From Pseudomonadota bacterium (lineage in GTDB: Bacteria; Pseudomonadota; Gammaproteobacteria; Burkholderiales; Thiobacillaceae), in assembly GCA_021826065.1 (NCBI GenBank), contig JAKADY010000007.1:1-64000 (forward strand): 64,000 bases of DNA. The letters run 5' to 3'. The notes beneath the pieces were generated by a model that ran no database searches, had not been told where the DNA came from, and saw nothing but the letters and a program-made list of their open reading frames with translations. A program made the translations under genes and the position numbers. Position 1 is the first letter of the stretch. Every line of letters begins with the position of its first letter. This document shows positions 21,583-25,904 of the stretch, piece by piece.

Positions 21583-21676
21583 GGTCGGCCTCCTGGTATC
21601 AACAGCCGCTCAAGACGTGGTGATGGGCCAGGCCCCCCGAGGGGCAGGCAGGCGCGCGGTCAGGCAAAAGGCAAGG

Positions 21677-21695
21677 CGATGGCCATAGGCCATCG
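21677..21695 (-). promoter_or_regulatory. Hairpin just downstream of the riboswitch aptamer (candidate expression platform)
   Basis: A perfect 8-bp inverted repeat CGATGGCC/GGCCATCG with a 3-nt loop lies 3' of the aptamer on the transcript. The RNA that follows is only moderately U-rich, so it is not a classical intrinsic terminator. It may still act in switching or Rho access. Confidence 0.4.
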
Positions 21696-21701
21696 TGCGG
21701 T

Positions 21702-21794
21702 TGGCATCCTGGCGATCCCGCCGTCATAGGGTTTGCACCCCTTAGACCGGTGATTTTGCGTCCCCGCCTTTCGGCGCGTTTGCCCTTGCAGGTT
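21702..21794 (-). promoter_or_regulatory. Cyclic-di-GMP-I (GEMM-I) riboswitch aptamer
   Basis: Read on the minus strand, the sequence contains the GEMM-I core in order. These are AGGGCAAA, a helix capped by a GAAA tetraloop (CGCGCC-GAAA-GGCGGG), the hallmark GGGACGCAAA, CACCGGTCTAAGGG, a loop, CCCTATGACGG, and GCGGGATCGCC followed by TGCC. The closing GGCA/TGCC and the P2 and P3 helices can form. This class binds c-di-GMP. The aptamer lies about 120 nt upstream of the DUF1631 start codon and just downstream of a sigma-28-like promoter. Boundaries are approximate. Confidence 0.88.
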
Positions 21795-21820
21795 GCACCA
21801 ACGCTTGGCTGCTGGAACCG

Positions 21821-21848
21821 TTAACGGCAGGCCGAAGCAAAAACTTTA
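21821..21848 (-). promoter_or_regulatory. Sigma-28 (FliA)-like promoter upstream of the c-di-GMP riboswitch
   Basis: On the minus strand TAAAGTTT (21848-21841, a perfect consensus -35) is followed by a 12-nt spacer and GCCGTTAA (21828-21821, 7/8). The spacer is one longer than the usual 11. The predicted transcription start near 21813 places the riboswitch at the beginning of the transcript. Confidence 0.6.
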
Positions 21849-25343: not shown

Positions 25344-25904
25344 ATGGGACATCCTGCCGCGAAACCGGCGACCTACGAAGACCTCTTCGATCTGCCCGAG
25401 CATCTGGTTGGCGAGATCATCAACGGCCGCCTGGTCACGCACCCGCGTCCGGCGCCGCGGCATTCGCGCAGTTACTCCAGTCTGGGGGTGCAAATTGGGG
25501 CCCCCTATGACTTCGGGCGGGGTGGCCCCGGCGGCTGGTGGATCCTCGATGAACCCGAGCTGCATCTGGGCGGACACATCCTGGTGCCGGACCTCGCCGG
25601 TTGGCGGCGCGAACGCCTGCCCAGGCTGCCGGAGACCGCCTGGTTCGAGCTCGCGCCCGACTGGGTCTGCGAGATCCTGTCGCCGGCCACGGCGCGCGTG
25701 GACCGGAGCGAAAAGCTGCTGATTTACGCGGGGTTGGGTGTCAGCCATGCCTGGTTGGTCGACCCCGATCTGCGTCTGCTGGAGGCCTATCAAAACGAGG
25801 CAGGGCGTTGGGTCCTGCTGGGGGCCTGGCGGGATGACGATCGTGCGGCCATCGCCCCGTTCGACGCGATCGAGCTGGAGCTCGGCTTGTTGTGGGCGGA
25901 ATAG
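25344..25904 (+). CDS. Uma2 family (DUF820) putative restriction-like endonuclease
   Basis: The 186-residue protein has the Uma2 fold signature. It includes TYEDLFDLPEHLVGEIINGRLV, VPDLAGWRRERLP and WVCEILSPATARVDRSEKLLIYAGLGVSHAWLVDP, with PD-(D/E)xK-like acidic residues in PDLAGW and CEIL. Uma2 proteins are widespread, often in mobile or cyanobacterial settings, and their biological role is unclear. It follows the FlhB-like gene by 8 nt and converges on glnD with 4 nt between stops. Confidence 0.88.
   Translation: MGHPAAKPATYEDLFDLPEHLVGEIINGRLVTHPRPAPRHSRSYSSLGVQIGAPYDFGRGGPGGWWILDEPELHLGGHILVPDLAGWRRERLPRLPETAWFELAPDWVCEILSPATARVDRSEKLLIYAGLGVSHAWLVDPDLRLLEAYQNEAGRWVLLGAWRDDDRAAIAPFDAIELELGLLWAE

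Follow-up and report, generated by a model that had tools for sequence, protein, structure and literature searches.

The window analysed here, the first 64,000 nucleotides of contig JAKADY010000007.1 from a Thiobacillaceae bacterium (assembly GCA_021826065.1), carries on its minus strand a gene for a DUF1631 protein of 794 amino acids (PF07793; 21582–19198) with the Shine-Dalgarno (SD) sequence AGGAGG at 21594–21589. In front of this gene lie a FliA (sigma-28)-like promoter (21848–21821) and, 125 nt upstream of the full-length gene, a GEMM-I (c-di-GMP-I) riboswitch aptamer (21794–21708). Behind it, starting 2 nt past the DUF1631 stop, follows a gene for a protein of 437 amino acids with a degenerate EAL-like and an HDOD domain (19195–17882).

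The DUF1631 protein matches PF07793 over positions 8–741 of 741 (E = 1e-182, 609.9 bits at a cut-off of 33.7). Its predicted model (m162c39f6b6b8, mean pLDDT 70.8) consists of a helical body with low-confidence linkers and a small C-terminal beta domain; the C-terminal 89 residues modelled alone (m55522a1f66a0, mean pLDDT 86) form a small beta barrel with helices, whose best structural rows in Foldseek and VIA-align are TraI (Z 8.4–9.0) and the small barrels of Tudor/Spindlin. The predicted Tudor/TraI-like barrel is a common arrangement and gives no c-di-GMP function. Sequence relatives in the PDB were found neither for the whole protein at E values up to 1 nor for the C-terminal domain at E values up to 10, and the fold search with the whole model gave no match at E = 0.001. 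PilZ was recognised neither by Pfam in the protein at E values up to 0.1 nor among the best 50 rows of Foldseek or VIA-align for the C-terminal domain, with which a distant PilZ would be compatible. The sole NCBIfam match at E values up to 0.1 is to PacR (NF058594), and membership in this family was rejected, the match of 246.8 bits being far under the cut-off of 1200; literature searches on PacR brought up nothing relevant.

In genomes of the same family as the window's, paralogues of the protein are fused to other domains: one of 1394 amino acids has the order PilZ-DUF1631-GGDEF-EAL (L145, 1922–6103, minus strand) and another the order DUF1631-GGDEF-EAL (L146, 1553–5350, minus strand). The window itself contains, about 14 kb from the first pair and likewise on the minus strand, a second, short DUF1631-like gene (5615–4170; PF07793, E = 3e-32) beside a second EAL-like/HDOD gene (4160–2865; HDOD, E = 3.4e-11). 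No GEMM-I was found at this short gene when the whole window was searched with RF01051 and with a model built from relatives; in four relatives (L151–L154) a short DUF1631 paralogue does have the aptamer and is then followed by an EAL-like/HDOD gene. Two neighbours may be recorded here: the second pair (5615–2865) adjoins a gene that reads in translation as Fpg/MutM-like, and downstream of a FliK-like gene lies an open reading frame on the plus strand (25344–25904) that looks Uma2-like.

The gene behind DUF1631 was called EAL-like plus HDOD because of its HDOD match (48.5 bits, E = 9.9e-13) and a residual EAL match that stays below threshold (19.8 bits, cut-off 31.3). That the HDOD gene is the real target of the aptamer was considered and rejected, since the aptamer tracks DUF1631 and an HDOD gene lies downstream in only 12 of 51 aptamer-DUF1631 loci, contigs being too short to show it at four others (L116, L067, L115 and L045). 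The first-pass annotation, made from the sequence of the window, had spoken of direct c-di-GMP feedback. This part was given up, as there is no sign of an effect on c-di-GMP levels by either DUF1631 or the degenerate EAL-HDOD protein.

The same annotation had read a full GEMM-I core on the minus strand and had suggested an Infernal search with RF01051, which bore out the reading: when the entire window was scanned with the Rfam 15 models (cmscan), the match scored 74.6 bits (E = 8.6e-13; gathering score 35) and covered model positions 1–87 of 87. With a covariance model of 32 aptamers from relatives, the window aptamer being among them, the score is 96.3 bits and the runner-up in the window reaches only 7.9 bits. 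Within this set of 32 the P2 and P3 helices are conserved, 98.0% of the cells being paired, and two-sided changes occur in 16 of the 21 aptamer pairs, a number equalled in none of 500 shuffles. The strands of P1 also covary across leaders (CCTG/CAGG, TCTG/CAGA, CCTTA/TAAGG, ATTTG/CAAAT). Judged from this match, the leader RNA is a complete GEMM-I aptamer. Its ligand position reads G (AAGGGCAAA), as in all 51 DUF1631 leaders (c-di-GMP-type), and presumably corresponds to G20 of Vc2, where cGAMP variants are taken to have A; Vc2 is a GEMM-I riboswitch of V. cholerae. We infer from homology and covariation that c-di-GMP is the predicted ligand. A separate GEMM-I of a relative (L013, 1586–1501, minus strand) has A at the G20 position, which we take to be the cGAMP-type change, and is a possible cGAMP sensor in this family.

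Two more GEMM-I aptamers are present in the window's genome (2.74 Mb, 74 contigs). As read from the translations, one precedes a subtilisin-like serine protease (L063, 2122–4113, plus strand) and the other PilV/PilW-like minor pilin genes (L003, 1584–228, minus strand). Among the relatives, copies on one strand and 1.2–1.7 kb apart were seen at G058:C7 (141872/143470), G050:C104 (28923/30631) and G075:C1 (2193635/2194863), which suggests neighbouring co-regulated genes.

A search with RF01051 of 101 genomes, the window's own and 100 relatives, gave 138 GEMM-I matches in 71 genomes, and at least 67 of the same 101 genomes have a DUF1631 match. For at least 52 of the 138 aptamers, spread over at least 49 of these 71 genomes, a DUF1631 match on the same strand follows 79–463 nt downstream; among the matches listed, no aptamer has DUF1631 on the opposite strand within 1500 nt. 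One aptamer in front of a short paralogue (G012:C57, L154) comes in addition to these 52. The pairing recurs across many genera. Among 80 named DUF1631 loci, the best 80 of at least 582 confirmed stretches in the species collection, 37 have the aptamer, each time ahead of the gene; it was not found at the other 43, one of which (L097) lacks upstream sequence, and three further minus-strand matches in this search were weak (E = 0.03–0.67) and were taken as noise. Of 30 DUF1631 loci drawn from the listing of the 101 genomes, 22 have it. Absence from the orthologous leaders of close relatives, which the first-pass annotation had named as grounds for abandoning its reading, was not what was found: in both congeners with DUF1631 (G002 and G003) the aptamer stands in front of the gene, while the matches listed include no DUF1631 for the third genome of the genus (G001, 84% complete).

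On a tree of 81 DUF1631 proteins, the window's included and L097 left unlabelled, the label "aptamer" changes 10 times as compared with 26.8 times in shuffles. The proteins nearest to that of the window are from two uncultured Burkholderiales and a Thiobacillaceae bacterium. A mainly gammaproteobacterial clade of 17 rows has no aptamer in any of them, nor has a Hydrogenophilales-like clade of four (L072, L073, L075 and L076). From this pattern the aptamer looks old in the Betaproteobacteria, yet lost or gained repeatedly. For the leader analyses that follow, 8 of 59 aptamer leaders were dropped as duplicates and the start codons of L107, L083 and L051 were reassigned by hand.

FliA promoters have the consensus TAAAGTTT (−35) and GCCGATAA (−10) with a spacing of 11–12, giving 16 positions that can be scored. 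The box in the window, TAAAGTTT-N12-GCCGTTAA, agrees in 15 of the 16 at a spacing of 12 and is near-identical in two species of the same genus. It is the single match of the strict pattern TAAAGTTT-N10-13-GCCGWTA in the 2.74-Mb genome, where the same pattern read backwards finds none. Thus the proposed FliA-like promoter held good; it does precede the aptamer, "within a few nucleotides", as first described, being approximate: the −10-like box ends 26 nt ahead of the aptamer model. It should be noted that the flagellin promoter of the window's genome scores only 10 of 16, which leaves the local specificity of FliA uncalibrated, and the box was therefore called on consensus and conservation rather than on a local standard. 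FliA itself is encoded in this genome (G000:C74).

A score of at least 13 was reached in 18 of 49 DUF1631 leaders, about a third, versus 6 of 1960 dinucleotide shuffles; the 49 are kin, so these counts are not independent events, and L102, which has N upstream, and L092, with 70 nt of upstream sequence, are left out. Where GEMM-I precedes other genes, none of the 16 leaders scored 13 or more, their best being 12. Three DUF1631 leaders outside the 49 scored 11 (L010), 14 (L015) and 11 (L023), and four leaders of short paralogues 16 (L007), 15 (L009), 14 (L025) and 11 (L014), L007 and L009 thus having both the box and GEMM-I. With the unit of aptamer and DUF1631 defined among the matches listed, FliA scores above cut-off in 43 of the 49 unit-bearing genomes as compared with 36 of 52 others. 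Of the six unit genomes with no FliA above cut-off (G015, G029, G036, G048, G070 and G082), G015 has a short DUF1631 match containing a TGA, G036 is 71% complete and G048 has FliA only as pieces at contig ends; in G070 and G082, which are 100% and 99% complete, the DUF1631 frames of the unit are long and open.

These numbers bear on an explanation in which the aptamer regulates little, or regulates a DUF1631 with no special link to motility, the FliA-like box being incidental here. It would agree with the 31 of 49 leaders that have no box of 13 or more, and some c-di-GMP riboswitches of C. difficile are described as non-functional in the available part of one report (PMC6366702). However, the aptamer structure covaries, it has been kept by a large share of the Betaproteobacteria on the sampled tree, and the box occurs in DUF1631 leaders and in none of the other GEMM-I leaders, all of which makes this explanation improbable in our judgement.

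How ligand binding would be passed on to the gene was approached through the leader folds. A candidate for an ON switch in the window is the 5′ strand of an extended P1 with its preceding bases (21804–21787), which can pair in the alternative with the start codon region (21581–21563) over 16 bp with small bulges. The segment is identical in three congeneric species (window, L065 and L066). The pairing is part of the free minimum free energy (MFE) folds of the window and L065 leaders and missing in that of L066, and it may merely mirror the codon constraint of the encoded MQEA. Removal of the aptamer lowers the cost of opening the SD/start region with z = −3.5 in the window and −3.0 in L065 relative to shuffled aptamers, whereas the z for SD/start accessibility in the third congener, L066, is only −0.62. 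The predicted folds of these two leaders, the window's and that of L065, its nearest relative, thus weakly favour ON.

Class I c-di-GMP switches of both directions, ON and OFF, are known according to the portion available of one paper (PMC6366702). As an OFF switch, the aptamer would let c-di-GMP shut translation or transcription of DUF1631, which would then be a factor of the planktonic phase, silenced like the flagellar operon of C. difficile under Cd1. The same source describes all seven functional class I switches of C. difficile as OFF switches, with flagellar genes being silenced by Cd1 (PMC6366702). The raw differences in SD/start accessibility with and without the aptamer also lean this way, 26 of 50 leaders being OFF-leaning versus 8 ON-leaning (one row with N is omitted from the 50), and z is above 1.6 in 8 leaders. 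This lean vanishes, however, against shuffled aptamers: the mean z over the 50 leaders is 0.19, with 5 leaders below −1.6, and the mean difference of 1.84 is mostly matched by the 1.34 of the controls, so that a family-wide OFF lean was rejected. Since the window and its nearest relative, moreover, point toward ON, we regard the planktonic-phase reading as possible, albeit rather unlikely. As to direction taken by itself, ON is our tentative choice at somewhat less than an even chance and OFF a lesser possibility, the remainder being undecided.

Other pairings were also compared across the leaders. Pairing of the aptamer's 3′ core (GCGGGAUUGCC) with a downstream anti-core element, assessed by duplex energies against shuffled spacers, reached p < 0.05 in 3 of 49 leaders (L102 and L107 being outside the 49) with a mean z of −0.19, and was therefore not accepted as a mechanism common to the family. 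Over 46 leaders, the P1 strands or the spacer paired with the SD/start region at a level near chance. For pairing of the 3′ strand of P1 with the core, 6 of 46 leaders were at p < 0.05, and four of the five rows with the lowest z (L096, L087, L098 and L099) belong to one Rhodocyclaceae-like clade. Hence, in these core-to-spacer, segment-pair and accessibility tests over 46–50 leaders, no expression platform conserved family-wide was found.

Just 3′ of the aptamer lies a hairpin of 8 bp, 6 of them GC, with the tail CCTTGCCTTTT (21695–21677). The first-pass annotation was right about its existence and proposed it as a possible switch output, a role that found no support, the tail being poor in U, 3 in the first 8 nt. 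A hairpin is kept at the corresponding place in both congeners examined, again with no proper U tract, the tail in L066 being CCCUGCAACC. If it were an intrinsic terminator whose folding depends on P1, the switch would act by termination. A lax terminator scan does call it terminator-like (1 found versus 0.4 expected, sd 0.7), and hairpins beyond shuffles (p < 0.05) follow the aptamer in 11 of 44 leaders, seven leaders with short spacers being left out. The tails across leaders, however, have 0–4 U in 8 nt, no conserved competing helix was found, and in V. cholerae neither class I switch of the two uses termination, as far as the accessible text states (PMC6366702). Termination is therefore an unlikely output in our estimate and was disfavoured: the predicted hairpin is real, yet would make a poor terminator, and, as the hairpins lack a conserved U tract, control at translation is the more likely.

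The arrangement as a whole probably acts as a two-input gate, in which transcription by FliA and a c-di-GMP aptamer together control DUF1631 as an effector of the surface transition, a proposal that we hold with good, though not high, confidence. As the promoter suggests, FliA would transcribe the mRNA while the late flagellar programme is active in the cell; the leader aptamer would bind c-di-GMP; and, by its position, it would control DUF1631 and the co-directional EAL-like/HDOD protein. In the window and its nearest relative, the start codon region of the free RNA would be paired with the 5′ strand of P1; ligand binding would hold this strand in P1 and so release the start, giving an ON switch, which is the weakest step. 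The product would then appear only where flagellar genes are still expressed while c-di-GMP is increasing, for instance on contact with a surface, and DUF1631 would act as an effector in this transition.

With respect to known systems, the window leader shares aptamer core, fold, position in the leader and a motility/surface context with Vc1 and Vc2 of V. cholerae and Cd1 of C. difficile. It differs from them in its target, DUF1631 behind a FliA-type promoter in Betaproteobacteria, and from Cd1 also in showing no sign of a termination platform. The PilZ flagellar brakes YcgR/FlgZ likewise join flagellar gene expression to c-di-GMP, the expression of YcgR depending on FliA; there, however, the sensor is in the protein, whereas here it is in the mRNA, PilZ not being recognised in the window protein. 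That DUF1631 is a widespread swimming-to-surface effector and the RNA-sensed counterpart of YcgR, its gene being transcribed along with the late flagellar genes and its protein produced only once the riboswitch senses c-di-GMP, with sister proteins fused to PilZ, GGDEF and EAL, is a speculation that we consider doubtful.

The class of riboswitch is known. In the portions of the literature that our searches covered, "DUF1631" occurs in tables or gene lists only, and titles and abstract openings on c-di-GMP riboswitches combined with Betaproteobacteria, FliA, PilZ or YcgR contain no such unit; within these bounds the conserved unit of sigma-28 promoter, GEMM-I and DUF1631 appears undescribed. 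A survey of 2013 counted, in the part available, 114 genes of unknown function under GEMM, the content of the regulon being mostly of unknown function (PMC3766115). The functionally uncharacterised DUF1631 family is widespread, with at least 582 confirmed stretches in the species collection, and as it accounts for at least 52 of the 138 GEMM-I matches in the relatives, it gives this largely uncharacterised regulon a target.

From the recurrent pairing with the aptamer, the FliA boxes and the GGDEF-EAL/PilZ fusions, DUF1631 is probably a sigma-28 and c-di-GMP-gated gene family, and the same evidence upholds the earlier proposal that it belongs to the c-di-GMP response. The recurrence of the arrangement in many relatives suggests that DUF1631 acts where swimming yields to surface life, and riboswitch, FliA-type promoter and fusions to c-di-GMP enzymes together make such a role testable by motility, attachment and reporter assays.
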